Below are positions 2-16,191 of a DNA stretch of 56,616 bases, piece by piece (position 1 is the first letter of the stretch; the number at the start of each line of letters is the position of its first letter). The stretch is taken from contig JAOAAX010000013.1 in assembly GCA_026418675.1 (NCBI GenBank), positions 1-56,616 of the forward strand. The letters run 5' to 3'. Both the position numbers and the translations under genes were made by a program. Origin of the DNA: Chthoniobacterales bacterium. GTDB lineage: Bacteria > Verrucomicrobiota > Verrucomicrobiia > Chthoniobacterales > DYNR01. The notes beneath the pieces were generated by a model. The model did not search any database and was not told the origin of the DNA. It worked only from the letters and a program-made list of their open reading frames with translations.

Positions 2-130
2 CGCGACATGGCGGACGAGGAGGAGCGATGGCAAACCCTCTACGATTGGCTCCTCGACCACGGCCTGACGCCGGAGGACGCCGCGGACTGGGCCGACCGG
101 CTGCTTGAGGAGCGAGGGGAGGAGGACTAG
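2..130 (+). CDS. C-terminal end of an acidic hypothetical protein (partial)
   Basis: An open frame enters from the left edge and ends with TAG at 128-130. An internal ATG at 8 could instead begin a 40-residue protein. The peptide is rich in Asp, Glu, Trp and Leu (DWLLDHGLTPEDAADWAD is its core), and I recognise no family. The first 120 bases are 70% G+C by my count, higher than the genes that follow. Its stop overlaps the stop of the converging methyltransferase gene by two bases (127-129 against 128-130), which suggests a real tail-to-tail gene end. Too little is visible to assign a function. Confidence 0.4.
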   Translation, partial: RDMADEEERWQTLYDWLLDHGLTPEDAADWADRLLEERGEED

Positions 131-1740
131 GAGGGGGAAAGGCACATAAAGCCGAGCCGGTAAAGGCGAGGAAGGGTATTTTGGAGGAGGATGGAGACGG
201 TTTCGCGGAGGCGGATGGGATCCTCGATGGGCTTGTCGTTTTCGTTGATGGTAAACTCGCGAGCTTCAGCGGCGGAGGAAAGCTTGAGCTGGAGGGCAGT
301 GGAGTCGTGGGTTCCATCGCAGAGTTGGACGAGTTTGTTAGCGAAGGGGTCGCTGGGGATCATTTCCCCGCGCTGGTTAGTGAGGCGCTGGCTGGTATGG
401 GCTTGCCAGCGGGTGAAGGGGAGGGCTTCGGGAAGTTGGGAGGAAGCTTTACGGTAGTTGAGTGGGGCGGTGTAGAAGTCCACGATTTTGCGGAAGGCCC
501 AGGAAACGAGTGCGGTTTGGAGCTGGGAGCGGAGGGTTTCGCGAGTTATTCCCTCGGGGAGAGGGGCAGCATCGAGGGCTTTTTCAATGACTTCCCTGCA
601 GGAGACGGCATGATAGCCCTGCTCCCAAATGGAACGCAGGAGGGACTTGCCAAAAGGCTCCGTCAGGCGGATTTCGCCGCCGGCAGGGTATTTGTAGATG
701 GCGTCCTCGGATGGAGGGGCGTCGGGGTTTGAGAGTTCCACAAGCGGAGAAATGTAGAATTGCTCGACAAGGGAGGGGTCAATGTTGCGGTTGATAGGCA
801 CCTCTTTGTGGACAAGGAGGGTGGAGCGGAACATGCGGTTGCGAATGAAATCCATGTATTGCTCGACGTCAACCTGTGGGAGTTTGAGTTTGCGGAGGGT
901 TTCGGCGGCCTGCGGGGGGAGGTTTTCGGTGAGCATGGTGCTGAGCTCCGCTTCGCCGAGGTATTGGAGGTCGTGCTTAGCGGCTTGAGCGAGGAAGTCC
1001 ACGAAGTAGAGCGGGCGGTTTTCGTCTTCGAGGAATTCGTGGGCGATGTAGCTGTCGTCGCAACGGGAGAAGAGCTCGAGCTCGCCGCGGAGGTGCTTGC
1101 CGTAGGCGGTGTTTTCGTCGCAGGCTTCGGCAAGGAATTTTAAGAGGGCACGGGATTGCTGGACTTTTTGGTTGATGTCGGGGAAGTTGCGGGTGTGCAT
1201 GATCATCATGTCGCGGAGGGCGCCGCGGAAACGCCATCCGGGAAGGCAATTGTAGCTGACGTAAGCGACGCCCTGCGGGGCGAGGTTTTCGCGGCAGATG
1301 CGGAGGATGGCATCCTGAACTTCGTCGGGGACCCAAGAGTAGAGGCCATGAGCGATGATGAAATCGAATTTGCCATAATCGGGACCGACTTGCGCGAGGT
1401 TGTCGGCGATGAGGCGAACGTTTTTGATGCCGGTAAGGCCGAGGATGTTTTCGCCTTCTGTGATTTGGCGGCGAGAGAGGTCCACGCCGACAAATTCGGC
1501 ATCGGGGTAGCATTGCGCCATAGCCATGAGGTTGGCGCCTTGAGCGCAGGCCAGTTCTAACACACGGGCATTTTCCGGGTTTTTTGCCGGGACACCAAAG
1601 AGGCGGGCGATAGCGCCAAGCTTTCCGATGTGGGTTTGGGCAAAGGTCAGCATGGGGTAGGGGAGGATGTCGTAAGGGGTCGACTGACCGTTCACACCTG
1701 TGGATTTTGTGACAGCTGGAGGAGTTGTCTCAGTTTGCAT
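127..1740 (-). CDS. SAM-dependent methyltransferase with regulatory domain (PKMT-like)
   Basis: 537-residue class I methyltransferase of the 'methyltransferase regulatory domain' type, the family that includes the rickettsial outer-membrane-protein lysine methyltransferases. SAM motif I is VLELACAQGAN at about residues 60-70, with the acidic end of strand 2 at D87 (FVGVDLS). The post-I segment FDFIIAHGLYSW follows near 125. A helical regulatory region lies around 215-300, and a winged-helix-like tail follows. It starts with ATG at 1740. It is the last gene of a leftward cluster, 202 bp after the TolC gene, and probably has its own promoter (1836-1864). Context suggests that its substrate is an exported or envelope protein, but this is inference. 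A degenerate relative lies at 8874-10058 at the other end of the cluster. Confidence 0.8.
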   Translation of the reverse strand: MQTETTPPAVTKSTGVNGQSTPYDILPYPMLTFAQTHIGKLGAIARLFGVPAKNPENARVLELACAQGANLMAMAQCYPDAEFVGVDLSRRQITEGENILGLTGIKNVRLIADNLAQVGPDYGKFDFIIAHGLYSWVPDEVQDAILRICRENLAPQGVAYVSYNCLPGWRFRGALRDMMIMHTRNFPDINQKVQQSRALLKFLAEACDENTAYGKHLRGELELFSRCDDSYIAHEFLEDENRPLYFVDFLAQAAKHDLQYLGEAELSTMLTENLPPQAAETLRKLKLPQVDVEQYMDFIRNRMFRSTLLVHKEVPINRNIDPSLVEQFYISPLVELSNPDAPPSEDAIYKYPAGGEIRLTEPFGKSLLRSIWEQGYHAVSCREVIEKALDAAPLPEGITRETLRSQLQTALVSWAFRKIVDFYTAPLNYRKASSQLPEALPFTRWQAHTSQRLTNQRGEMIPSDPFANKLVQLCDGTHDSTALQLKLSSAAEAREFTINENDKPIEDPIRLRETVSILLQNTLPRLYRLGFMCLSPS

Positions 1741-1942: not shown

Positions 1943-3853
1943 TTAATTTCGCAAAGGGGGGGAAGGGGCCAAGGTGGGAGAAGAAGGGGACGGGGAGGGG
2001 AGCGGAGCTTTCCTAGTATGGGAAGTGAAGTTTTTCCTGCGGCCCGGGGAAGGGGCAAGGTCGCGCCAAGCTTCTTTCTCGAGAGTAAAGCCAAAATAGG
2101 AATGGAGGGTGCCTTGGCGGAGATGGAGCTGGATAAGGTTTTTGGCATGGTCAGCCAATGCAGAATTGAGCTGGAGGCGGGCAAGGGCAAGGGAATTCTG
2201 GATGCGGAGGACATCAAAGCTGGTCGTGCGACCTTCTTCGAGGAGACGATTAGCGGATTGAAGGGAGCGAGTGGCAAGCTCGACAGCACGCCGGGCAGTG
2301 GATATGCGCTCGCGCGCAAGGAGGAGACGCGAGCAGATAGCATCAATTTCGGAAGAAAGAGCGTTCTGAAGATTCTGAAGGAAGAAAACGTTGCGCTGGC
2401 GGTCGAATTTGGCAGAAGCAAGCTGGGCACGCGCTTGGACGTTGCCAAGAGGAATGGAAAGAACTACAGCTGCTGAAAAATCTGTGCCCTGGCCGCTGAA
2501 GGAGTCCTCAATAGAGTTGGGATAGGAAGAGGAAGTAGAAAGGCCAGCCAAGCCAAGCTGGATGGAGAGATCGGGGAGTGTCTGGTTGCGATAATAGCGG
2601 ATAGTTACGTCGGATTTCTCGATGTATGTGCGTGCAATGAGGAGCTGGGGATTGTGCTGGAAGGCAATGAAGCGAGATTCGTCGCGGTTTGGAGTGAAGG
2701 GGAAGTAGGGGATGGGGTCAGCCGGGCGAAGGTCGGTCCACTGTTGGAGGGAGTTTGGGGAGGAGATAAGTGAGCGGAAAGTGGACATGCGGGTAGCTAA
2801 TTCGGAGCTAGCCGTGTAGAAGTCGTCTTCGCGGGATTTGACGGCGCTGAGGGCCTCGAGGACGTCGAATTGGGACATGCGGCCGTGGAGGACGCGGCGC
2901 TGGTTTTCGTAGGCGAGACGCTGGGCGAGGCGGATGTTGTCGGAACGGACGAGGAGGTTTTCGTTAGCAAGTGCGAGGTCGATGTAAGCGGCGGCGACAT
3001 CGGCGAGGACACGCTCGACTTCTGCACGCCATTCGAGCCAGCCGATGTGGCGGTCGAGACGAGCGAGGGCAACGGGAGCGAGGTTGGCGGCAGGGCCGAA
3101 GTTGCGGAGGAGGGGCTGGGAGAGGCGAAAGCCGACCGCACCGGAGTATTCAGGATAAAAGAGAGCGGGAAGGCCGCGGATGTTGGTTTCGTTGCGGAGT
3201 TCGTCGAAGTTGAGATAGAATTCGTAACTCGTTCCGAGAGGGAAAAGGCCACTAAGGGAGATGCGGTTGAAAAAATTCTGGGAATCGTAGAGGTTGGGCT
3301 GGAGGAGGATGCGCTGGTTGGGGGAGGGTTGGGGACGTTCCTGGCCGCGGAGGATGGCTAGGAGTTCCTCGAGTTGCTCGAGGAGGGAGAGCTGAGTTTG
3401 GGTGACGGTTCCGCCTGTAGCGATGTATTGGGCGGCATTCTGAGGGGTGTTGGTGTAGCTGTAGCGAGTGGAGAGGGATAGGGTAGGGTCGAAACGGCCG
3501 AAGGCAGCCTGGACTTGAGCGTTGGCAATTTCCGGGTTGAGACGGCGGGCCTTGATGAGAGGATTGTTCTGGAGGGCCTCAAGGAGAGCCTCCTGAAGAG
3601 TGATCCGGCGGATTTCAACGCCGAAGATGTGCTCGGGAGCAACAAAAAGGGAGTCGAGGGTAAGTTCGAGGTCGGCAGGTTGGGAGAGGGGAGATGGACC
3701 AGGCGGGGGTGAAGAGGAAGAGGAGGGCTGAGAGTCGGCAGAAGCAGGCGCGGGGGAAGGTTCGGCTTGGGCCAGAGCGGGGAGCGAGAGGCAAAACGGG
3801 AGGAGGAACGCAGCAATGAGGAGGGGGAAGAGGAAACGGGCCGGCTTTTTCAC
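1943..3853 (-). CDS. TolC-family outer-membrane efflux protein
   Basis: 636-residue outer membrane factor. A signal peptide (basic MKKPAR, hydrophobic stretch, cleavage probably after ALA at about residue 28) is followed by a Pro/Ser-rich linker to about 60. Two outer-membrane-efflux repeats follow, with long coiled-coil helices (for example LAYENQRRVLHGRMSQFDV and the repeat-like TRSLQSANRLLEEGRTTSFDV), as expected for a trimeric channel-tunnel. It starts with GTG at 3853, 34 bp after the M50/HlyD gene, so it probably shares that transcript. The C-terminal 40 residues are Pro/Ser-rich and extend beyond the usual fold. It would form the outer-membrane exit of the apparatus encoded upstream. 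The family is clear; the cargo is unknown. Confidence 0.88.
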   Translation of the reverse strand: MKKPARFLFPLLIAAFLLPFCLSLPALAQAEPSPAPASADSQPSSSSSPPPGPSPLSQPADLELTLDSLFVAPEHIFGVEIRRITLQEALLEALQNNPLIKARRLNPEIANAQVQAAFGRFDPTLSLSTRYSYTNTPQNAAQYIATGGTVTQTQLSLLEQLEELLAILRGQERPQPSPNQRILLQPNLYDSQNFFNRISLSGLFPLGTSYEFYLNFDELRNETNIRGLPALFYPEYSGAVGFRLSQPLLRNFGPAANLAPVALARLDRHIGWLEWRAEVERVLADVAAAYIDLALANENLLVRSDNIRLAQRLAYENQRRVLHGRMSQFDVLEALSAVKSREDDFYTASSELATRMSTFRSLISSPNSLQQWTDLRPADPIPYFPFTPNRDESRFIAFQHNPQLLIARTYIEKSDVTIRYYRNQTLPDLSIQLGLAGLSTSSSYPNSIEDSFSGQGTDFSAAVVLSIPLGNVQARAQLASAKFDRQRNVFFLQNLQNALSSEIDAICSRLLLARERISTARRAVELATRSLQSANRLLEEGRTTSFDVLRIQNSLALARLQLNSALADHAKNLIQLHLRQGTLHSYFGFTLEKEAWRDLAPSPGRRKNFTSHTRKAPLPSPSPSSPTLAPSPPLRN

Positions 3854-3887
3854 AGGTTTAGCAGATCCAAGCTTTGGGAGGAGGGAG

Positions 3888-6113
3888 TTAGAGTTGGTAA
3901 TCTTTGCGGAGTTTGTTGACGAACCAACGGTGGATGCGCCAGGCGAGGTTGTGCCAGCCGGCCGAAATTTTGATGCGGCCAGACATGCCTGGACGTAAGG
4001 TTGGATCGGATTGATCGAGCAAAACTATCGCTTCGTAAAAGGGACTTGCAGTCAGATGAGCATAGGAACCATCGGGGCGGAGCGCTTGAGATGCCTGGAG
4101 GGGAACCGTGCCTCCAGCACCATTTCCAAGGGCATCATGGGGGAGGATGCGTTCGGCAATTGGGCTTACGGAAATGACACGGCCAGTGTAGGTTTTGGCA
4201 GGGTCGGCCAGAAGACAAAGCGAAGCGCGGTCCCCAGGACGGATAATTGCAGCAGCAGTTTCGCTCAGTGGAACAAAAATGCGAGTTGGCCCCTCGGGGA
4301 GGATTTCAAAGACTACAGAGCCGGATTGGATGAGTTCGCCAAGTTTTTCCTCGGAAGGGGCAGAGAGGATCGTGCCCGAAACAGGAGCGAAGAGTTCGAG
4401 CGAATGGATGCGGGAAGAGAGCTCGTGCTCCTGCGCTCGGAGTTGAGCAATGAGGAAACGTGCAGAGGCGAGAGTCTCTTCGAGGTTGTTGGCAAGGGAG
4501 TAGGATTCGAGGATTTGGTGGGCACGGAGGGAACCGCGAACATCGTTGAGGGAAGCTGTGAGCTTGGGATTCTCAAGCCGCGCAAGGAGTTGACCACTCT
4601 GGACATAGTTGCCCTCTTTTTCAGAGATGGAGCGAAGGAAGCCATCCGCACCCGGGGAAACAGGGACAACCGTGTCTTTGGAAATGATGCACGAAGTGCG
4701 GAAATGATAGGGGAATGGAATGAGGAAAATAGCAGCTAGAACAAAAGCGATAAGGACGAGGCGCTTGAAAAGGAAAGCCTTGCTTGCACCAAGGCGGAGA
4801 GCCTGCTTGACCGCCTTGTAAATACCCACAAAGGGAAGAACAAGACTGTAGAAAAGAGTAATGAAAGCGCCAATCTGAAGGAGGCGGTGGAGGCCGTATT
4901 CGCGAAAGTAATAGTCAATAATAAGGAGGATGCCAAAGGTGACACTGATGAGCCAAAGGTAACAGGCAATAGAATAAAAACTAAGCCGGTAGCGGAGGGA
5001 TTGTGCAATCGGATCAGGTGTTGCCAGCCGATAGCCAGTAAGGAATTCGGCTACACGAGAGAAGAAAAAGCGGTCGGCACGTTCGCGAAGGTTGGGGATT
5101 TCAAGGAAGTCGGAGAGAGCATAGTAGCCATCGTATTTCATAAGGGGATTGAGATTCATGAGAATCGTGGAAACACTGCAAACAATCATGACATTGAAGG
5201 AGAGTTGATTGAGGAGCCCTGGCTCCGTAATGACCCAAAGGATAGCAGCAAAGGAAGCTAGGAATAATTCGACGTAAATGCCGGCAAGGGTGACAAAGAA
5301 GCGATGCCACTTGTTCGGAAACGTCCAGCTATCCGTTGCATCGCAGAAGAGATACGGAGTGAAGACAATGCACATGAAGCCCATGTCGTGGACTTCACCC
5401 CCATAATGTTTGCAGGAAAGGCCGTGCCCGAATTCATGGCAAATTTTGACAAAGATGGAAACAATCCAGAGGTAGATGAGGTTTTGAAGGGAGAAGAAAT
5501 CAGGGGTTTTTGCGATAGCTTCGTCCCAATTTAAAATGAGGGTGAGAATAGCAGTAAGCAAAAGGACAAAGAGGATAATAATGGCGGATTTCGTCCAGAG
5601 GAAAGAAGTTGCTTTGGAGAGACGGAGGAGGATGATGTCAGGGTCGAGTAAGGAAATTTTGAAGGAGGTAATCTTGCCGAGGTGGCGGAGGAGGGAGGTT
5701 TTGCGAAGGAGGTCGCGTTGGCGCTGGTTAAGATTGTTGGCCAGGGAGAGGGCACGGTCGCTGTCGAGCTCGAGTAAGCTCATCATGAGGAAGGAGTTGA
5801 GAATGTTGCGAAGTTCGGCGCGCGTCAGTGTGCCCTTGCCAAAGGATTCATCAATTAGGAGAAGTAAGTCATTTTCGGTTGTCAAACCATCGAGATGTGA
5901 AGCAATAAAATACTCGAGAGGCCCAAGACGATAGTAGCGAAGGGAGACAGGGTCCTTGATGACATAGCTGACTCTGCCTCGATAGGTGTGCTTGCGAATG
6001 TGAAGGTCGCGCCGGAGACGGGGCAAGCGGGGATTGTCGCGGAAGGCGAAATTCCGCGGCTGCGAAAATGGGACGCGATTGCCCAGCGAATGGACAGTAG
6101 AAGCAGATGTCAT
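3888..6113 (-). CDS. M50 site-2-protease-like membrane metalloprotease fused to an HlyD-type adaptor domain
   Basis: 741 residues. Residues 36-115 form a small domain resembling the PqqD/RiPP-recognition winged helix often found ahead of peptidase M50 in such proteins. The first membrane helix is at about 172-195. The zinc motif HEFGH is at 226-230, and the third ligand motif NPLMKYDGYY is at 322-331 with D328, so the active site looks intact. Further membrane helices follow to about 475. Residues 500-741 contain a biotinyl-lipoyl-like segment (VSPGADGFLRSISEKEGNYV), a coiled coil and a beta-barrel segment, as in membrane fusion proteins. It starts with ATG at 6113, overlapping the previous gene's stop by four bases, so the two are translationally coupled. 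It could cleave and hand over a substrate to the TolC channel; that role is inferred. The precursor is not visible. Confidence 0.8.
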   Translation of the reverse strand: MTSASTVHSLGNRVPFSQPRNFAFRDNPRLPRLRRDLHIRKHTYRGRVSYVIKDPVSLRYYRLGPLEYFIASHLDGLTTENDLLLLIDESFGKGTLTRAELRNILNSFLMMSLLELDSDRALSLANNLNQRQRDLLRKTSLLRHLGKITSFKISLLDPDIILLRLSKATSFLWTKSAIIILFVLLLTAILTLILNWDEAIAKTPDFFSLQNLIYLWIVSIFVKICHEFGHGLSCKHYGGEVHDMGFMCIVFTPYLFCDATDSWTFPNKWHRFFVTLAGIYVELFLASFAAILWVITEPGLLNQLSFNVMIVCSVSTILMNLNPLMKYDGYYALSDFLEIPNLRERADRFFFSRVAEFLTGYRLATPDPIAQSLRYRLSFYSIACYLWLISVTFGILLIIDYYFREYGLHRLLQIGAFITLFYSLVLPFVGIYKAVKQALRLGASKAFLFKRLVLIAFVLAAIFLIPFPYHFRTSCIISKDTVVPVSPGADGFLRSISEKEGNYVQSGQLLARLENPKLTASLNDVRGSLRAHQILESYSLANNLEETLASARFLIAQLRAQEHELSSRIHSLELFAPVSGTILSAPSEEKLGELIQSGSVVFEILPEGPTRIFVPLSETAAAIIRPGDRASLCLLADPAKTYTGRVISVSPIAERILPHDALGNGAGGTVPLQASQALRPDGSYAHLTASPFYEAIVLLDQSDPTLRPGMSGRIKISAGWHNLAWRIHRWFVNKLRKDYQL

Positions 6114-6970
6114 TGTGAAGGGAGGAATTGGACGCGCGCACGAATGCCCGTTGGAACAGATGTGGGTGTATCGGAGGGAGTGCGGAGAGCAATTTTGACG
6201 CGGAAGATGCCCGTGCCAGGGTCAACAACGGGGTCGGCGAATTCTATGTTACCTTCCAGGGTTTCGGGGTTGTCCCCAAGCAAGGGTGTGACGAGAACAG
6301 TCTGGCCACGGTGAACCTTCGGAAGATGGATGGCTTCGAGATAGACAAGCGCAATCATGTCGTAGCAGTTGGCAATGTCTGCAAGAGTTTCAAAGCGCTG
6401 GACAGATTCGCCGGGCTTTTTGTGAATTCGGAGGATGTGGCCGGGGAATGGAGCTTTTAGGATGTGATAGTCCTTTTGGAGGGTAGCCAGGCCAAGGTTG
6501 GCCTCGGCAGCGGCTTTTTCGATTTCGGCACGCTCGAATTCCGTTCGGCTGATGAGGTTCTCGGCTAAGAGGCGGCGGGCAGATTCGAGATCGTTGGCCG
6601 CTTTGCGCGCAGATTGTTCGGCGAATCGGACGCGGAGTTGCTGTTCACGGGCATTGAGAGTGAGGATGGGTTCGTTTTTTTGGACAAATTGGCCTTCTTT
6701 TACGAGGATTTCCTCAACGACACCATCTACCTGGGAAGCGAGTTTAGCTTGGTTGCGTGGAAGGAGGAGGCCTTCAGCAGTCAGGATTGGGTAGGGGGTA
6801 GGAGAGGGAGAGGCCTGCGGCGGAAGCTCTTGGGCTTGTTGGGCGTGTTCAGCGGAAGGTTCCGGAGTGGGCGAAGGAGGGGATTCAATGGGCGGAACGA
6901 CATCCGCAAAACATGGTAAGACAAGAAGGAAGAGCAAGAAGATTTTTATTGGGGTATTAAAGGAGAACAT
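6110..6970 (-). CDS. Periplasmic adaptor subunit (HlyD/RND-type membrane fusion protein)
   Basis: 286 residues, short for the family. An N-terminal signal sequence (IFLLFLLVLPCFA) is followed by a Pro-rich spacer to about residue 65. A lipoyl half-motif (ASQVDGVVEEILVKEGQFV) comes next, then an alpha-helical hairpin (about 105-155), the second lipoyl half (APFPGHILRIHKKPGESV) and a beta-barrel domain. The VLPC sequence resembles a lipobox but has Pro at -1, so lipidation is doubtful. It starts with ATG at 6970, overlaps the upstream GAF/HlyD gene by 14 bases and the downstream M50 gene by four. In RND systems such proteins join an inner-membrane pump to TolC. No pump is encoded here, so the partner may be the M50 or GAF/HlyD protein. 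Confidence 0.82.
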   Translation of the reverse strand: MFSFNTPIKIFLLFLLVLPCFADVVPPIESPPSPTPEPSAEHAQQAQELPPQASPSPTPYPILTAEGLLLPRNQAKLASQVDGVVEEILVKEGQFVQKNEPILTLNAREQQLRVRFAEQSARKAANDLESARRLLAENLISRTEFERAEIEKAAAEANLGLATLQKDYHILKAPFPGHILRIHKKPGESVQRFETLADIANCYDMIALVYLEAIHLPKVHRGQTVLVTPLLGDNPETLEGNIEFADPVVDPGTGIFRVKIALRTPSDTPTSVPTGIRARVQFLPSQ

Positions 6971-8867
6971 GGATTCGGAGCCAGTTTAGAAAAGCCCGCA
7001 TAAGGAGATAGCCAGCGGGAAGTGTGCCGAGATGGATTTTTGCCCGGCCTTCAAAACCGTAACGGAACTTTTGCTGTGAGTCGGAAGGGGGAAGGGGAAC
7101 GCGGATTTGGAAGCAGTTGCGGTTTTTTATTACTTCGGCAATAGGGCTGACCTGCGAAAGGGAAGTTATTTGAGCGTGAAATTTTTGTGTCGGAAGGCTC
7201 GAGAGGAGAAAACGCACGGAAAGGGATTGGCCTTTGAGGAGGCGGGAAGTAAGGAGAGCAATGTCGCTCTCGGGAACCTTAATGACAAGTTCCCAAGAGG
7301 ATGGGACGCCAACGATGGCAAGTTGGGTGCCAGGCTGAATTAGGGTGCCCAGGGCTTCTTTGAGTTGGGGAGCATAGAGGATACCCTCCATAGGAGCGCG
7401 AAGGGTCGTTTTTCGAAGTTGATCCTGCCAAAAAGCGATTTGCGAGCGGACACGCTCGAGGTTCATCTCGGCTATGCGTGCTTGGGCGCGGTTGTCAAGC
7501 GAACGGTAGTGATCGGCTTCGGTGCGATAACGGTTTGCCTCTTGACCGAGAACTTCGAGTTGGCGGCGAATTTCGAGGTCGTCGAGTTGAGCGAGGGGTT
7601 GTTGGGCAGAAACCGCTTGGCCATTTTGCACATAGATATGATTGAGGATACCGGAGACTTCACTGACAACTTGGACGCGCTGGATGGGATAAATGGTGCA
7701 GTCGCCCGTAAGATCATGAGACCAGGGAAAGAAACAGAGAAAGAAGGTGACAAGAGTGGGGATGAGGAAACGCTTGCGGAAGAAAAAGGAACGGAGAGTA
7801 GGATAGCGAAGGAGGAAGTTGTGAAGGCGACGGAGCTGACGGTAGAAAGGAAGGGCATTGAGTTGGTCTGCACTGTAAAGCGCTGGAGCACAATGATGGG
7901 CAACAGAAAGGGCCTGGTTGAGCCGGTGAGGGTCTTCGCCTTCAAATTGTTGGAATTCGGCGAGAAGCATGCCGACGTTCTTTTCACCGACTTTCATCGG
8001 AATTACCGCAAGCGCCTCGGCATCGGTGTAATAGAAGAAGTCGCCTATGTTGCCTTGCTGCTGGGTTCTGGGGTCTTTCTTCTTGTAAACGCTTGGTGAT
8101 CCATAGCTGAAGATTTCTTTAGCAGCCATCGCCATGGAGCGCAAAAGCGCACTCTTGGGTTCGGGAGTGGACATGTGCGAGATCGCAAGGAGGCGAGGTT
8201 CCTTGCCCTTGAGAGGTGGGAGGAAAATCGCACAGCGCTTACAGCCTATGATTTCGTGGCAGAGATTGACCATTTTTAAGCCGAGAGTCTCCAGGTCCAT
8301 CTCGCCAGTGATGGAGGAGAGAAGCTTTACCATGCGTTGAACCTGCTCCAATGACTCAGCAGCCCGGGCCAGCCGGTTATTTCGCAAAACCAAAGCACAT
8401 AGGCCCGCGGCGGAAGAGAAAAACTCAATGGCCTGCTGGAGAGAGTCGGGAGGGAAATCGTTTCTGAGCCAAGTAAGCTGCACACCCTGGAGTGGATCTT
8501 GAGTGCCCGGTAAGCCAGATAGCATGGGCACAAAAAGGAGATAAAGAGGAGATTCGTTGGTAAGTGACGACGGCGAATTCTGTGGATAAGCAATTATGGG
8601 TTGAAGGGTAGCGCCAACACGTGAAACCAAATCTTGAATGTGCTTTTTCTGGGAGGGCGAGGATTCATAGAGGATTTCAGAGGTGTCGGATCCACCAAAA
8701 AGCGCAAATTCGCCAGAGTGGTGCCCCCAAATCGCGCAACCACGAAAGCCATGAAAAATCGCAATCGCCTGAAGGTAAAGTTGGAAAAATTGCTCCAGCG
8801 CAAGAGGCGTGTTGGCCATCTGCGCAATGCGGCGAAGAGCTTCTTGGAGGTCAGCTGGATGGGTCAT
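6957..8867 (-). CDS. Two-GAF cytoplasmic sensor fused through one membrane helix to an HlyD-like periplasmic adaptor
   Basis: 636 residues. Residues 1-165 and 180-335 each read as a GAF-like domain (the second includes EIIGCKRCAIFLPP and AVIPMKVGEKNVGMLLAEF). A helical linker follows, then a single membrane helix at about 367-381. Residues 390-636 form a membrane-fusion module: lipoyl segment (VVSEVSGILNHIYVQNGQAV), coiled coil, second lipoyl half (LRAPMEGILYAPQ) and beta-barrel. The predicted topology puts the GAF domains in the cytoplasm and the adaptor in the periplasm. It starts with ATG at 8867, six bases after the stop of the degenerate methyltransferase, and overlaps the next gene by 14 bases. 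The architecture suggests that an export complex is gated by a cytoplasmic signal; the ligand is unknown. Confidence 0.75.
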   Translation of the reverse strand: MTHPADLQEALRRIAQMANTPLALEQFFQLYLQAIAIFHGFRGCAIWGHHSGEFALFGGSDTSEILYESSPSQKKHIQDLVSRVGATLQPIIAYPQNSPSSLTNESPLYLLFVPMLSGLPGTQDPLQGVQLTWLRNDFPPDSLQQAIEFFSSAAGLCALVLRNNRLARAAESLEQVQRMVKLLSSITGEMDLETLGLKMVNLCHEIIGCKRCAIFLPPLKGKEPRLLAISHMSTPEPKSALLRSMAMAAKEIFSYGSPSVYKKKDPRTQQQGNIGDFFYYTDAEALAVIPMKVGEKNVGMLLAEFQQFEGEDPHRLNQALSVAHHCAPALYSADQLNALPFYRQLRRLHNFLLRYPTLRSFFFRKRFLIPTLVTFFLCFFPWSHDLTGDCTIYPIQRVQVVSEVSGILNHIYVQNGQAVSAQQPLAQLDDLEIRRQLEVLGQEANRYRTEADHYRSLDNRAQARIAEMNLERVRSQIAFWQDQLRKTTLRAPMEGILYAPQLKEALGTLIQPGTQLAIVGVPSSWELVIKVPESDIALLTSRLLKGQSLSVRFLLSSLPTQKFHAQITSLSQVSPIAEVIKNRNCFQIRVPLPPSDSQQKFRYGFEGRAKIHLGTLPAGYLLMRAFLNWLRIHVLL

Positions 8868-8873
8868 GCAGGA

Positions 8874-10058
8874 TTAAGCAGTGGTCAGATTGGGAGCAGT
8901 TGGCGGTCGCAAAATCAACACACTCGAAACATGAAGCAAATACAAAGCAGGAGTAAGATCGAGGTGAAATTTCTCCGGCACTTCAAGAGATCGAAGAAGG
9001 GTAGCAAGATCAAGATTGCCATTGGCTTCGCGGAGAATCGCAGCAACGACAGAGCTTACCTGTATAGTCACTTTGGGCAAAATACCCTGAATCTCTAACG
9101 TCAAATGAACAGGACGTAGCCAGGGTGGTTTAAATGAAGGAAGGGCGGAAGTGTTGAAAAAAGGAACCCACGGCTTCCAAAGTTGTAAAGCGGAGGGAGC
9201 ATTCCATGGGGGCTCGCCAGGCCCACCTTTTACGATAAGCATATCGAAAAATGGGGCAGAATAAAGAAGGGCATACGCTTTGGCAAGATCTGAAAGGGAG
9301 GGAAGTCTGAGCGTCTCTAATGGTAAATTCCCAGCACTTGGAAGGAGATAGGCAGGCAATCGTGGGTCGGCTATGGCCATTAAGCCGGCGTTTTCGGCAG
9401 CTCGCAACAGCTCGAAGCCATTTTCCGGAAGTGGAAAACGACTCAAAATGGGTTTGAGTTTTTCAGTTAGGCCACTCCAGCCTGAAAGAGCGGGTGAAAG
9501 GGAGGAAAGTTTCGCTGATAAATTTAAAAGCTCGTGGGACGGAGCACTGGGTGTCTCTGGCGGATTAAAAAAAAATGTAGATAACTTTGTCGCGAAACGA
9601 ATGAACAGCGCACCACCATTAGGGCGGAGGAAGTTTGCTAAGGCTTGAAGGATTCCATGGGGAGAAGGATAACTGAAGCCGTGTAAGGAAATGACAAGAT
9701 CATAACAGTTCCTAAGATTTTCGGGGACGGAATTTGCCCACGACCAGCCGGTGAAGGTTTCAAAGTTGGATGGCTGCCTTTTTTCAAGCCACGATTGGAT
9801 TGCCTTAGGTAACCTCGAAGAAGAGGTTAGAAAGCAAAAATTTACTTGCGGAAGTGATTCAGCAAGAGCTTTCGCTAAAACCCAAGGGCCATGCCAGAGG
9901 ATGTTTTTTACGCGAGAAATCGGAATAGCAAGGGAAGAAGCAACTATCCAAGAGAGCGGTGGAATAGGTTTATGGCTCGAAAGACGTTCGATGAACCGAA
10001 AGGACCTTGGACGGGAGTAATGGGTTGATGGGGTTGATGTTAGGGACGAGCTTTGCAA
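8874..10058 (-). CDS. Degenerate methyltransferase-fold protein (probable pseudo-enzyme)
   Basis: 394 residues, first gene of the leftward cluster. It can be aligned by eye with the 537-residue methyltransferase at 127-1740. YDLVISLHGFSYPSPHG matches FDFIIAHGLYSWVPDE, followed by LRPNGGALFIRF against LAPQGVAYVSYN, and the winged-helix-like tail is shared. The SAM-binding glycine motif is absent: NILWHGPWVLAKAL stands where VLELACAQGANLM is expected, and the strand-2 acid is replaced by LTSSS. Catalysis is therefore unlikely, and a regulatory or scaffolding role is possible. It starts with TTG at 10058; an in-frame stop lies two codons upstream and no ATG occurs near the N-terminus. It ends six bases before the GAF/HlyD gene. 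Confidence 0.6.
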   Translation of the reverse strand: MQSSSLTSTPSTHYSRPRSFRFIERLSSHKPIPPLSWIVASSLAIPISRVKNILWHGPWVLAKALAESLPQVNFCFLTSSSRLPKAIQSWLEKRQPSNFETFTGWSWANSVPENLRNCYDLVISLHGFSYPSPHGILQALANFLRPNGGALFIRFATKLSTFFFNPPETPSAPSHELLNLSAKLSSLSPALSGWSGLTEKLKPILSRFPLPENGFELLRAAENAGLMAIADPRLPAYLLPSAGNLPLETLRLPSLSDLAKAYALLYSAPFFDMLIVKGGPGEPPWNAPSALQLWKPWVPFFNTSALPSFKPPWLRPVHLTLEIQGILPKVTIQVSSVVAAILREANGNLDLATLLRSLEVPEKFHLDLTPALYLLHVSSVLILRPPTAPNLTTA

Positions 10059-11137: not shown

Positions 11138-13666
11138 TTATTTGAGGCGGGGGCTGCCCTTAGAAAGGGGAGGTGTTGGACGTATTGGCGCCGGTAATCC
11201 CAATGGGTCTACAATTTCTTCCTCATCCACTTCCTCACGCCGTAATGGCTTCCCCTCCGTATCCAAAAGCCGTGGAGATACAAAAATTAATAGATTCTTT
11301 TTAATTTTCTTATCCACTGTGGCTCGGAATAGCCGTCCGGCAATCGGCACATCGCCTAAGATAGGAACTTTATCTTGAACTTTTTGGCCATCTTCTCGAA
11401 TAAGCCCACCAATGGCAACTGTTTGACCATCCCAAACTTTGACGTTCGTGGTAACTCGGCGAACGGAAAATACAGGCTGTAGGATTTTATTCTCAGTCAG
11501 AACAATTGCGCGCGGGAAAGCAGCAAAGAGATTAAGACCATCAGGCCCCACTCCAAACCCATCGCTCCAACCTACCGTGTTAATCTCCGAACCATAGTTT
11601 ATAAAACCTTCGAAATCAATAACTTCTGGTTTCAGCCGTAAATCTATTGTGTAGTTGTCGTTTTGGACTTCGGGTGTGACCGTTAGCATAACGCCTATGT
11701 ATTGTTCTGCGTAAGCACTTGGGAAAGACGGAACAATCGGTGGAGCTGGAACGGTCCGTGGGTCTATGTTTGCCGTTTGAGCACCTCCATCCCCTGTTGC
11801 TGTTTGAGAAATTTGCGGAGGATCATAACTCGTCGGATAGTAGAACTTTCGAGCAACACGAACAACTGCTTCCTGACCAGGTTTTGTCGTAACACTCGGA
11901 GATGCTAAAAGATCCACCCCTTTCTTTTGACTTAATGCTCGAATTACAACTTCAAACTGTGGATTTGTAAAAATGCCAGCTATGCCAAAAATCCCAGGTG
12001 TTGGAGATGGAGAAAAAAGCGTCCCTTGTAAAAGAGAATCAACATTGTTGGGTAAAGTTGCTGATTGGATATTGTTTCCTTCACCACGGCGCAATCCACT
12101 AGTTATCGAGGGCAAATTAAGATTAAATGGGTAGTTGCCTGTATTGGGATAGGAAGGATCCCCACCGCTTATTGCAACGCCATTGAGGGAGAATGGCCCC
12201 ATCAGGAAGTCGAATCCAAGTTCTTCTAAATTGTTTTGAGAAATTTCTATGAATTTGGTTTGGATTTCGACTTGTTTTTCTTGAACTCCTGTTGCAGCAT
12301 TAACGAGTGCCTCGATTTGATCAATGTTGTCTTGGGTATTTTTAACAATGAGCTTGCTCCCGCTTCGATAATACGTAGCGGAAGCACCTTGCGGGAATTT
12401 TATGCCCTGATCTTGCAAAAACTTTTGCGCGTCAATTGTGCCTGTAAGACTTGAACGGGGCCCTTGTGGTTGTCCCCGGGGAACAAATGCCTGCGGCGCA
12501 TCTTCTTTCGTAAAGGGAATGAAATCTGGTGGCACGCGAAACTCTCGCGTAACCAATGTATCAATTGGCACACTCAGTGGAACAAGGGTAACAGCAAAAG
12601 GCTCAACCTTAACCCGAAGACCCGCTAACTCAGCAACATAACGAAGTGCCTCGGAAAGTGGAACATTGGTAAGTTGTAAAGTTATGCGTGTGTTTGGAGA
12701 AACTTGAAGCTCCTGTTGCTGTTCTTGGCCCGGCTGCGCCTGCTGCGCAAGCTGTAACACTATGTTAACACCTCTGCGGCTCTCGTCACCTGTTGTATCA
12801 AGCCGAATACTCTGTTGTTGCAAAAAGGACACAGCCTCCCGAAGTGTGGTGTCTTCCAAATTTATTCTAGGTATGATGATTCGATTGAGCTTTGTAAGAA
12901 TAGCTTCTGTGCCACGTGTCTCTTGCTGGGGCCCAGCACTTGCTTCACGTCGCACTGTCTTCTCGGGTGGTATTTCCCAACTTTTCGTAACTTGCCAAAG
13001 AAATCGTGAGCGCGTTTCATCATACGAAGATTGATAATATTCTTGTTTTCGATTCTCCACCTGCTCAAGTCCACGTCGAGCAGCTTCGTTGTAAGGATCA
13101 AGTTCGAGAATCTGATTGTAACGACGCGCAGCTAAATCATACCGGCCAGAGATATAAAAGCCTTCGGCCTCCTGAAAAAGTTTGTTAACTTGATCGCGTT
13201 TGGCTGCAAATTCCGGAGTTAGCGTCTTGTTGAAAACGTTCGGTTGCTCAAGCTTGGAAAGAAACGCCACTGCAGGGCGATACGTGGGATTAAATTCTGG
13301 AAGCAGAACTGTCTTGGCAACTTTTTCTGCATCCTCATACCTCCCTTGTTGAACTAACCAATTTGCATACTCCATCGCTGCTCTTGAAAATTCATTAACC
13401 GCTGCCCGCCGTGGTCGCCCATTGTCTAGGGCTGGCGGAAGTAATTCAACCGCATCAAGAAAATGAACATACGCCTTTTCATATTCTTTAAAACTGAGCG
13501 CCTTACGCCCTTCGGATAAAAGTTGCTCAGCTCTTTCAACATTCGCTTGGCGGCGGGCAATTTCGCGTTCCGCAATTGCAGCAACCGAATCTGCTTTCGC
13601 TAATGGAACCCAGGAGCTGAAAACTGCAATGAGAAGCATTAAAAAAAATGGCTTAAGAGTTTGCAT
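11138..13666 (-). CDS. Secretin, Amuc_1098-like type IV pilus/type II secretion outer-membrane protein (copy 1)
   Basis: 842 residues if started at ATG 13666, which has a GGA Shine-Dalgarno-like sequence six bases upstream. A GTG at 13681 would overlap the preceding stop by four bases and add five residues. There is a signal peptide, and a TPR-like helical region at about 45-220 (EAEGFYISGRYDLAARRYNQ). N-domain segments follow, then the secretin C-domain with VAIGGLIREDGQKVQDKVPI, LGDVPIAGRLFR and KKNLLIFVSPRLLD. It forms multimeric outer-membrane gates in pili or type II secretion. A paralogue lies immediately upstream. The inner-membrane assembly genes usually near this family (PilM, PilN, PilO types) are not in the window. 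Family clear; Amuc_1098 assignment from memory of that architecture. Confidence 0.82.
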   Translation of the reverse strand: MQTLKPFFLMLLIAVFSSWVPLAKADSVAAIAEREIARRQANVERAEQLLSEGRKALSFKEYEKAYVHFLDAVELLPPALDNGRPRRAAVNEFSRAAMEYANWLVQQGRYEDAEKVAKTVLLPEFNPTYRPAVAFLSKLEQPNVFNKTLTPEFAAKRDQVNKLFQEAEGFYISGRYDLAARRYNQILELDPYNEAARRGLEQVENRKQEYYQSSYDETRSRFLWQVTKSWEIPPEKTVRREASAGPQQETRGTEAILTKLNRIIIPRINLEDTTLREAVSFLQQQSIRLDTTGDESRRGVNIVLQLAQQAQPGQEQQQELQVSPNTRITLQLTNVPLSEALRYVAELAGLRVKVEPFAVTLVPLSVPIDTLVTREFRVPPDFIPFTKEDAPQAFVPRGQPQGPRSSLTGTIDAQKFLQDQGIKFPQGASATYYRSGSKLIVKNTQDNIDQIEALVNAATGVQEKQVEIQTKFIEISQNNLEELGFDFLMGPFSLNGVAISGGDPSYPNTGNYPFNLNLPSITSGLRRGEGNNIQSATLPNNVDSLLQGTLFSPSPTPGIFGIAGIFTNPQFEVVIRALSQKKGVDLLASPSVTTKPGQEAVVRVARKFYYPTSYDPPQISQTATGDGGAQTANIDPRTVPAPPIVPSFPSAYAEQYIGVMLTVTPEVQNDNYTIDLRLKPEVIDFEGFINYGSEINTVGWSDGFGVGPDGLNLFAAFPRAIVLTENKILQPVFSVRRVTTNVKVWDGQTVAIGGLIREDGQKVQDKVPILGDVPIAGRLFRATVDKKIKKNLLIFVSPRLLDTEGKPLRREEVDEEEIVDPLGLPAPIRPTPPLSKGSPRLK

Positions 13667-13677
13667 AGATGTTCCAA

Positions 13678-16191
13678 TCACGGCAAAGGCATTGGTGGAG
13701 CAGGCTCAAGTTGTGGTAGAGTTTCAGGGGGCAACGGAGCTTCTGAAGTTAAAAATTCTTCGTCAATATTTGTTGTAACAGGCTTGCCGGCCGGGTCTAT
13801 CAGATTCGCTGTTACAAAAATTATTAAATTCCTCTTAATGTGTTTCGATGCGACTGTTCGAAAAGCACGACCCAAAATCGGAACATCGCCAAGGATCGGA
13901 GTTTTATCGTTGATACTCTGAACATCCTCCCGGATAAGCCCACCCAACGCAATCGTCATTCCATCCTGAATTGTAACACGAGTCGTTACCTCCCGGTAAC
14001 TAAATACAGGACGGTAAATGTTATTTGGTGTTATCTGAATTCGTTGGTTAAAGAATGACTGGAACGGTGTTATGCCAGTTGCTGTAAGAACTGGCGCGGA
14101 AGTAAAAATTGGCGAACCATAATTGACAAATCCATCAAACTCAGTAACTTTTGGCGTTATCCGCATATCTATCGAAAAACCATCATCCAGAATAGTGGGA
14201 TCAACTTCAAGCGTAACGCCAATATTTTCATATTCAAAAGAGGAGGGCGTGGCAGGAGCAACTGGATTATAAACTCCTATGGCAACTGTTTGTGGTGGCT
14301 GTGGCGGATTGTATTCTGCAGGATAGAAAAACTGGCGCGTAACCTCAACTGTCGCTTGTTGGCCACTACTTGTCGTTACTGTCGGCGCAGACATCAAATC
14401 AATTCCCCGCATTTGGTCAATCGCACGCAAAACAACTTGAAATTGAGGATTTGTAAAAATTCCGGCAAGGGCAAGCACACCCGGTGCAGGACCCGCAGGT
14501 GTGCCAAACAGGAGAGCATCTAAAGCATTTGCTCGAAAAGCTGTCCCTCCCGAGCGATTGCCTGCCGTGAGCTGTCCCGTGCCAGACGTTGGGTTATTCT
14601 GTGGACTTGGATTGCTCAGTCCTATTGGAACATTATTCGCAGAACCCACAAAGGGATAAATCTGGCTTAAAGGAACTGGTTGGTCATTTACGATGTAAGG
14701 GGGTTGAGCGCCTCCTGTTCCTCCACTGCCGTAAATTCCGGAACCAAACGGCAGCGAAAATTGACCTAAGAGCCAGTCAAATCCCAGCTCCTTCATATTA
14801 TCTTGTGTTATTTCTAAAAACTTGGACTGAATCTCAATCTGGGTTGGGGGTGTAGCTAAAGCCGTCTCAACAATACCATCAATGAAGTTTATATTCTGAA
14901 TTGTATTCCGCACAACAAGCTTACTGCTGCTAGGAAAGTATTGAGCGAAAGCTCCTTCCGGAAATTCAACTCCTTTGGCCTCCAAAGCCTCCTTGGCTCG
15001 GGCCCGAGACGAAACTCCCTGCCCACCACCTGAATCACCTGTTATAAGCGATGGTGGAACGCTATATTCTTTTGTTATCATTTGCTCCGTCGAAGCGCTC
15101 AAAGGCACAATCGCTACAGCATACGGCTCAACTTTTGTCTTCAGTCCAACAGATTGGGCAACAAAATCTAGAACAACCCCAAGAGGGGTATCCGTAAGTG
15201 ATAGGGTTATCCGCGATTGGGATGCAGCTTCTAATTCTTGGGGATTCAACAACAATACAATGTTTATCCCCTTTTTAGTGGGATCCGTTTCCTCGGTATC
15301 AAGTTCGGCGGATCGTTTGCGGAGAAAGGCAATCGCTTCACGAATCGTCGTATCGTTAAACTCAATACGAGGAATAATAATTCGTTCTAGCTTGCTTTGG
15401 ATTACCTGCGCACCCGATATGTCAATTTGAGGTTGCTCGATAATCGCTGAAACCCCTTTATCCACCTTCTTCGCGGGAATTTCCCATCCTCGCTCAACTT
15501 GGGTTATCATCACAGCGCGGGCGTGATTGTAAGAAGCTTCTGCATAACTTTGCCGAGCTTTGTTGATTTTTTCCATCCCGCGTCGTGCAGCAATGTTGAA
15601 ACGATCTATATTAAGCACCTGCTCGTAACGACGAAAAGCTAAGTCATAACGTCCACTTTGGTAAAATCCATCCGCCTCCTCCAACAGTTGCTTCACCTCC
15701 TCAACCTTGGCAAGAAACCCCGGCGTCTGAGTTTTGTTGAAATATCCAGGAGTTTTAAGCTTCCGTTCAAGCAAGAGTAAGGTAGCATCTTTTGGATCAT
15801 ATTGCGTCAAATAAACACGCACAATTTCTTCAGCATCCGAGTAACGCCCTTCCGATATGCGTTGCTTCGCAAACTTCTCCGCGGCTTGAGAAAAATCACG
15901 TAGTGCTTTATTCCGCTCGCGCACTACTTCAGGAGCACCCCCGGCAGGCATTGCATCCACCGCCGATTGAAAATAGCGAAACGCATTCTCGTAATCCCGC
16001 TCTTGCATGGCCTTTCGACCTTGCTCAAGCATCTGGGGAACAAATACCTCTGTTATATACTGCCGCCGTTGTGCTTCCCGTTCTGCCAATGTAAGCGCCC
16101 GCCCACTTTGCCCCCATCCAACACCCCCACAACAACTAAAACTCAAAAGCCCCAAAACCAGCACACGCAATGAAAATCTTAATTTCATCAT
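13678..16191 (-). CDS. Secretin, Amuc_1098-like type IV pilus/type II secretion outer-membrane protein (copy 2)
   Basis: 837 residues, parallel in architecture to the following gene: signal sequence, TPR-like helices (EADGFYQSGRYDLAFRRYEQ), N-domains, and a C-terminal secretin domain (IALGGLIREDVQSINDKTP, LGDVPILGRAFR, KRNLIIFVTANLID). Shared motifs in the same order show a tandem duplication that has diverged. The ATG at 16191 is followed directly by a second ATG, and either may be used. The stop overlaps the next frame's GTG by four bases, so the pair is likely coupled. Two different secretins from one transcript could form mixed rings or serve two pilus states; that is inference. A 398-bp gap upstream should hold the promoter. 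Confidence 0.82.
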   Translation of the reverse strand: MMKLRFSLRVLVLGLLSFSCCGGVGWGQSGRALTLAEREAQRRQYITEVFVPQMLEQGRKAMQERDYENAFRYFQSAVDAMPAGGAPEVVRERNKALRDFSQAAEKFAKQRISEGRYSDAEEIVRVYLTQYDPKDATLLLLERKLKTPGYFNKTQTPGFLAKVEEVKQLLEEADGFYQSGRYDLAFRRYEQVLNIDRFNIAARRGMEKINKARQSYAEASYNHARAVMITQVERGWEIPAKKVDKGVSAIIEQPQIDISGAQVIQSKLERIIIPRIEFNDTTIREAIAFLRKRSAELDTEETDPTKKGINIVLLLNPQELEAASQSRITLSLTDTPLGVVLDFVAQSVGLKTKVEPYAVAIVPLSASTEQMITKEYSVPPSLITGDSGGGQGVSSRARAKEALEAKGVEFPEGAFAQYFPSSSKLVVRNTIQNINFIDGIVETALATPPTQIEIQSKFLEITQDNMKELGFDWLLGQFSLPFGSGIYGSGGTGGAQPPYIVNDQPVPLSQIYPFVGSANNVPIGLSNPSPQNNPTSGTGQLTAGNRSGGTAFRANALDALLFGTPAGPAPGVLALAGIFTNPQFQVVLRAIDQMRGIDLMSAPTVTTSSGQQATVEVTRQFFYPAEYNPPQPPQTVAIGVYNPVAPATPSSFEYENIGVTLEVDPTILDDGFSIDMRITPKVTEFDGFVNYGSPIFTSAPVLTATGITPFQSFFNQRIQITPNNIYRPVFSYREVTTRVTIQDGMTIALGGLIREDVQSINDKTPILGDVPILGRAFRTVASKHIKRNLIIFVTANLIDPAGKPVTTNIDEEFLTSEAPLPPETLPQLEPAPPMPLP

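Follow-up and report, generated by a model that had tools for sequence, protein, structure and literature searches.

A pump-less operon with an M50 protease-adaptor fusion as a candidate exporter of proteins carrying non-classical N-terminal leaders

Kamneva, Poudel and Ward (2015, PMC4452313) described a neighbourhood of genes encoding GAF-HlyD, M50-HlyD, HlyD and OEP proteins around a secondary SecA_DEAD ATPase; they proposed the M50 protein as a pore, gave the role as "completely unknown", named neither a cargo nor an export signal, and did not mention PqqD. Independently, the LEPR-XLL or "Planctomycete extracellular" motif has been taken since Studholme 2004 (cited in PMC8567305) as a putative signal at the N-terminus of surface proteins that directs their export. 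Here we analyzed a 56,616-nucleotide stretch of a Chthoniobacterales genome (contig JAOAAX010000013.1 of assembly GCA_026418675.1; hereafter the window), which carries on its minus strand, at 1943-10058, a five-gene cluster encoding GAF-HlyD, HlyD, M50-HlyD and TolC proteins (the module) behind an unassigned first gene. We read this operon, with a probability of roughly 0.6, as a trans-envelope exporter for proteins with a non-classical N-terminal leader, which in relatives is the LExR motif.

The window resembles the 2015 locus in bringing together GAF-HlyD, Peptidase_M50-HlyD and HlyD/biotin_lipoyl genes, there sometimes with OEP, and in having no ATP-binding cassette (ABC) transporter (PMC4452313). 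The 2015 locus is, however, defined by its secondary SecA_DEAD gene, which the window and its clade do not have. The SecA-like partner, of 620-750 residues, has intact motor motifs and is truncated, missing the SecA wing/scaffold domain. It adjoins the module in 25/26 loci of one M50 clade and in some planctomycete loci, and in 0/28 loci of the window's M50 clade, which rules it out as a part of every module. The window's M50 protein is 27-30% identical over its full length to members of the SecA clade (e.g. L036, L042 and L046) and falls in a different clade of the same tree. In the window's genome there is one SecA_DEAD protein, a 1039-residue frame with scaffold/wing and SEC-C domains, that is, the housekeeping SecA. 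Because of these two observations we consider the window a SecA-less relative and not a member of the 2015 set.

Two other families invite comparison. Type I secretion (HlyB-HlyD-TolC) shares its adaptor and TolC families with the window, and a one-step duct is likely in both; it relies on an ABC transporter and a C-terminal tag, whereas the module has no ABC transporter, an N-terminal tag, and adaptors fused to protease and GAF domains. Daptide and PqqD-associated M50 proteases (NF041824, NF058609) have a related M50 core and a PqqD-like partner domain, but the window's protein differs in its subthreshold score, its HlyD fusion and the lack of a detected precursor peptide. As for LEPR-XLL (NF012209) and PF07595, these name a signal and not a machine; the signal adjoins and co-occurs with the module in relatives, and was not found in the window's genome. 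The first-pass annotation had proposed an undescribed system. Since PMC4452313 had already presented a SecA-bearing version in 2015, the machinery cannot be called wholly new. The elements that are new, as far as we found, are the adjacency and co-occurrence of LExR proteins with the module, the signal variant that follows the M50 clade, and the SecA-less clade itself; we found no published link between signal and module in a search that left preprints and most subscription journals outside.

The operon and its relatives

All five open reading frames (ORFs) of the cluster were recovered on the minus strand. The operon and the domains discussed below are as follows.

8874..10058, minus strand: unassigned first gene of the operon, 394 residues, weakly methyltransferase-like (ORF list; PF08242 E=0.068, below cut-off)
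6957..8867, minus strand: GAF-HlyD fusion, 636 residues (Pfam and NCBIfam; AlphaFold2; Foldseek)
7863..8810, minus strand: segment coding for the two GAF-type domains of GAF-HlyD (Pfam/NCBIfam, model, Foldseek)
6110..6970, minus strand: HlyD-type periplasmic adaptor, 286 residues (TIGR01730 above cut-off, 1.2e-33)
3888..6113, minus strand: M50 intramembrane protease-HlyD fusion, 741 residues (Pfam, NCBIfam, homologue alignment, AlphaFold2)
5769..6026, minus strand: PqqD-like domain of M50-HlyD, resembling a recognition element of ribosomally synthesized and post-translationally modified peptide (RiPP) pathways, residues ~30-115, candidate leader reader (homologue profile, model)
5424..5438, minus strand: HExxH zinc site of the M50 core, residues 226-230 (invariant in 42 sequences)
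5121..5150, minus strand: NPLMKYDGYY segment, residues 322-331, with the second catalytic motif D328 (42-sequence alignment)
1943..3853, minus strand: TolC-family outer-membrane channel with signal segment, 636 residues (PF02321 5.5e-43; TIGR01844 3.2e-31)

From the first gene to TolC, the genes are separated by a 6 base pair (bp) gap, a 14-bp overlap, a 4-bp overlap and a 34 bp gap, just as first annotated. The OEP/TolC, HlyD, M50+HlyD and GAF+HlyD assignments agree between Pfam and NCBIfam. Neither these searches nor the ORF list revealed any ABC, resistance-nodulation-division (RND) or major facilitator superfamily (MFS) gene in the cluster, so the original observation that no such translocator is present holds.

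Homologues of M50-HlyD were found in 61 of 289 Verrucomicrobiota genomes (placed in this phylum by inference from named neighbours). Many Planctomycetota and some Proteobacteria, alphaproteobacterial plasmids among them, have homologues too, and none was found in the viral contigs searched. GAF-HlyD and HlyD both adjoin M50-HlyD in 32/40, 55/80 and 13/20 loci, TolC in fewer. Within the window's taxonomic order the unit GAF-HlyD, HlyD, M50-HlyD, TolC is conserved amid unrelated flanks, and since this arrangement repeats in about 10 genomes of that order the operon is not a product of chance. We also asked whether the same genes in relatives flank a standard ABC pump, and found that they do not: a systematic scan, restricted to ABC ATPases, returned 8 such ORFs at distances of up to 6 kb from the module in 140 loci and 0 in 20 same-order loci, ruling out an adjacent ABC pump. 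Overall, the first-pass proposal of an envelope export or processing cluster built on a membrane protease and lacking a classical pump is supported.

The M50-HlyD protein consists of a PqqD-like N-terminal domain, an M50 membrane core and a periplasmic adaptor (AlphaFold2 model, predicted local distance difference test score (pLDDT) 87.6, predicted template modelling score (pTM) 0.74). Residues H226, E227, H230 and D328 are invariant across 42 M50-HlyD sequences, so that both HExxH and the second-motif Asp are present, and N322, P323, G329 and Y330 are equally invariant around D328. The window's protein scores 20.5 against PF02163, under the gathering score of 27.2, and its core matches the daptide protease model NF041824 (E=1.7e-56) with 192 bits, short of the equivalog cut-off of 300 bits. 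PqqD-like domains bind leader peptides in RiPP pathways. The connection between this protease and PqqD made in the first annotation stands for the family, in which 19/42 M50-HlyD proteins pass the PqqD model and TfuB1 (6jx3_B) matches positions 9-101 of the M50 family profile (E=0.01); the window's own sequence falls below the PqqD model. In the AlphaFold2 model the region forms three strands and three helices, in an order that fits.

GAF-HlyD carries two GAF-type domains (residues ~20-135 and 190-335), a membrane helix at ~361-379 and an adaptor at ~381-617, with no membrane helix between the GAF domains and the N-terminus. Its AlphaFold2 model (mean pLDDT 88.9, pTM 0.47) was matched by Foldseek to MacA (3fpp, 4.4e-14) and to the tandem GAF domains of PDE5A (3lfv, 1.9e-11). 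By structure comparison the adaptor halves of both fusions resemble MacA/MexA. The separate HlyD adaptor has an N-terminal hydrophobic signal segment (residues 4-22).

Association of the LExR signal with the module

Large ORFs beside the module in relatives start with [ED]xLExR, followed by xLLSA, IAPA, LFDG or ELFAA; this motif matches NF012209 (LEPR-XLL) and resembles PF07595. Of 1141 neighbourhood ORFs longer than 200 residues that were picked, 31 carry a loose form of it close to the start (~25 of them convincing), versus 6 in reversed sequences. At E<=9e-4, NF012209 was detected in 18 of the 289 genomes, and all 18 carry M50-HlyD, compared with 61/289 overall (Fisher p=7e-14); at a looser cut-off 20/26 genomes carry it (p=1.6e-10), and because the genomes compared are related these p-values, as well as the one given below, overstate independence.

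On seven alphaproteobacterial plasmids, a LExR protein is encoded directly upstream of DUF3467, GAF-HlyD and M50 in 8/8 loci read. It measures ~4,000 residues in Thalassospira and 8,100 to 12,900 residues in Alisedimentitalea, Methylosinus, Mesorhizobium, Pontibrevibacter, Pseudohalocynthiibacter and Pseudosulfitobacter (two loci). In Pontibrevibacter there are 4-bp overlaps between the giant gene and DUF3467 and between DUF3467 and GAF-HlyD, and on NZ_CP049043.1, a 62-kb plasmid that bears the module, an 11,582-residue frame fills more than half of the sequence.

We next turned to the window's own order, counting a LExRIAP DNA pattern in 46 genomes with the backwards pattern as control. In the best-sampled family, at least 5 hits were present in 11/12 genomes with a window-type operon (9 to 28) versus 1/22 without (p=5e-7), and the control gave 0-2 hits per genome. 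Hits inspected in the operon-bearing genomes lay 9-170 residues into long ORFs, those in operon-less genomes mostly in short or unrelated frames. Genomes with no M50 other than the SecA type had 0-1 LExRIAP hits, and on the M50 tree the tag variant requires 4 changes for four states; we therefore conclude that each M50 clade has its own tag variant. In one genome (G310) the two M50 types occur together, and so do the two tag variants. This match of clade and tag is as would be expected if the module reads the tag.

Several observations on individual loci are reported alongside. The annotated start of the giant gene at L301 (NZ_CP123586.1, 183224) omits the leader, which an upstream reading in the same frame supplies as "EQLEPRLLLAAD". 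On NZ_CP049043.1 (L308 and L312) the 11,582-residue frame, with "METYEPRLLLSAD", is unannotated and spans the record start. LEPR-XLL open frames of 17,000-20,466 residues occur in several verrucomicrobial genomes (e.g. G015:C142:82006). A DUF3467 protein of ~110-150 residues is a frequent partner of the module (L096:12272-12610, L178:5449-5829, L300:9788-10069 and ~20 further loci). Its gene often sits between the giant gene and GAF-HlyD, is common in planctomycete and alphaproteobacterial loci and is absent from the window; the protein is a candidate chaperone. Finally, in Methylacidiphilum-like genomes (family f9; L043, L044, L050 and L058) the module is found with pairs of 110-176-residue "LESRELFAA" proteins, and these loci also hold PqqD, an HPr-kinase-like protein, a circularly permuted ATP-grasp and a radical S-adenosylmethionine (SAM)-like protein, possibly a modified-peptide pathway that shares the exporter.

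Proposed mechanism and alternative explanations

From sequence and structural models we infer both transport and leader cleavage by the module, in the following way. The PqqD-like domain of M50-HlyD would bind the leader, and delivery would be driven by ATP; one large clade would use its dedicated, truncated SecA for this, the window's SecA-less clade the housekeeping SecA or another motor. The M50 core, whose catalytic residues are intact, would serve as the inner-membrane platform and probably cut the leader. The three adaptor modules, recognizable by fold, may assemble with TolC into a periplasmic and outer-membrane duct, with the GAF domains sensing a putative cytoplasmic ligand to gate the complex. 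In the window, a methyltransferase encoded next to the operon might in addition modify the cargo.

A number of observations weigh against an exporter of this kind. We found no LExR protein in the window or in its genome (94% complete, 131 contigs) with NF012209, a 23-row motif profile or two degenerate DNA patterns. The nearest operon relative (G385, 37% identity) likewise showed no convincing N-terminal LExR protein, nor did the family member G332 by the LExRIAP pattern. Two candidate cargos were rejected: the sole LETRIAP hit in the window's genome (on C11) lies in no ORF, and an E-x-L-E-x-R hit near an N-terminus (L210) was dropped because of what we take to be an RNase G-type start. In the window's lineage, either the tag has diverged, or the cargo was lost from a fragmented assembly, or the cargo is of another sort. 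Elsewhere in the order, G324 is the one clear exception, with 20 LExRIAP hits, many of them N-terminal in large ORFs, and no M50-HlyD found; G293 has the operon and a single hit; and many planctomycete loci have no LExR ORF within 10 kb. A further genome (G314) encodes a LExRIAPA protein and has no M50, which is explained by its contig, where GAF-HlyD is cut by the contig end. The PqqD-like match of the window's own protein is weak, that single SecA is the only one in the window's genome and no energy source was found for the SecA-less clade, and to our knowledge no bacterial M50 protease conducts polypeptides.

The main alternative, which we judge unlikely, is that LExR proteins cross the inner membrane via SecYEG and that the module only processes them, moves them across the outer membrane or anchors them there. 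In its favour, processing is what M50 proteases do, no SecA-like gene stands beside the module in the window's clade, the window's genome has one full-length SecA, and the LExR link holds under either explanation. However, a Sec-type hydrophobic core was missing in 11/11 LExR leaders tested, and the SecA-like ATPase beside the module in 25/26 loci of one clade suggests inner-membrane transport by the module itself.

Less probable still is a cargo of another kind in the window's lineage, a small modified peptide that the set would export or mature in place of a giant surface protein. The match of the M50 core to the daptide protease model, below cut-off as it is, the PqqD-like domain, the paired small LExR proteins and modification genes of the Methylacidiphilum-like loci and the lack of a large LExR protein in the window's genome all point this way. 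Against it, no precursor ORF, radical SAM or PqqD gene was found in the cluster, and the cargo of relatives usually has hundreds to thousands of residues. The first-pass annotation found no precursor gene in the gaps; in relatives, Methylacidiphilum-like loci aside, the partner is usually a large or giant LExR protein and not a small peptide.

An ordinary tripartite efflux or type I system with its pump encoded elsewhere appears highly improbable: the adaptors and TolC do belong to such families, and pumps can be unlinked, but no ABC pump stands beside the set in the window or in 20 same-order loci, only one of the three adaptors is free of a fused GAF or M50 domain, and the genome-level LExR tie would be left unexplained. 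Signalling systems often employ GAF domains and site-2 proteases, yet regulated intramembrane proteolysis of a regulator, with HlyD and TolC as structural leftovers, can be set aside almost entirely, given three conserved adaptor modules with TolC in one operon and no conserved regulator or sigma factor among the neighbourhoods inspected.

Returning to the exporter, a broader claim can be put forward tentatively, at somewhat less than even odds. The module may represent a distinct secretion machine of Gram-negative bacteria, built on a site-2 protease-adaptor that reads the leader and takes the place of the ABC transporter. An N-terminal LExR tag would mark cargo reaching tens of thousands of residues in length, a dedicated ATPase may or may not be present, and every M50 clade would be fitted to its own version of the tag; the window would then be a member without the SecA-like gene, its tag having changed so far that it is no longer recognized.

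Neighbouring genes and significance

Beyond TolC, 203 bp further on, lies a sixth gene that extends the cluster.

127..1740, minus strand: protein-lysine methyltransferase homologue (Rickettsia PKMT1/2), 537 residues (PF10119 4.8e-26, PF21782 1.7e-18; 5dnk, 5doo)

Its product carries methyltransferase, PF10119 and PKMT_2nd domains and aligns almost end to end with the Rickettsia enzymes PKMT1 and PKMT2 (5dnk, 1.3e-90; 5doo, 2.3e-85), whose target is the surface protein OmpB. It probably modifies an envelope protein, and the gene may be a separate transcription unit. At locus L035, a PKMT start and glycosyltransferase genes are found near LExR proteins, which makes a modification of the cargo plausible. 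The contig begins at window base 1, just beyond this gene, and the sequence past it is therefore lost.

The first gene of the operon (8874-10058) had been annotated as methyltransferase-like, a label that our searches do not establish. It reached 14.3 of 30 bits against PF08242, no SAM-methyltransferase domain was recognized, no match was found among solved structures in the PDB, and no homologue was present in any fetched relative locus, so that it is apparently lineage-specific. Comparison with the PKMT gene gave chance-level scores.

On the other side of the operon, two adjacent genes (11138-13681 and 13678-16191, 4 bp overlap) encode secretin-like proteins of 847 and 837 residues with N-terminal parts resembling tetratricopeptide repeats; they may form a further channel in the outer membrane. 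Independently of gene strand, GC skew in the window is very strong, reaching 0.39 left of ~13 kb and falling to -0.57 on the right; the change, at ~13000-16000, where the two secretin genes lie, has the appearance of a replication terminus.

In summary, a signal regarded as putative since 2004, for which we found no machine named in the literature, is here joined to a module that has been without cargo or role since 2015. The connection rests on genome co-occurrence, adjacency and the match between signal variant and protease clade, and it makes the questions of signal and module testable together. If true, it would explain the pump-less surface display of some of the largest known proteins, with open frames of up to 20,466 residues.

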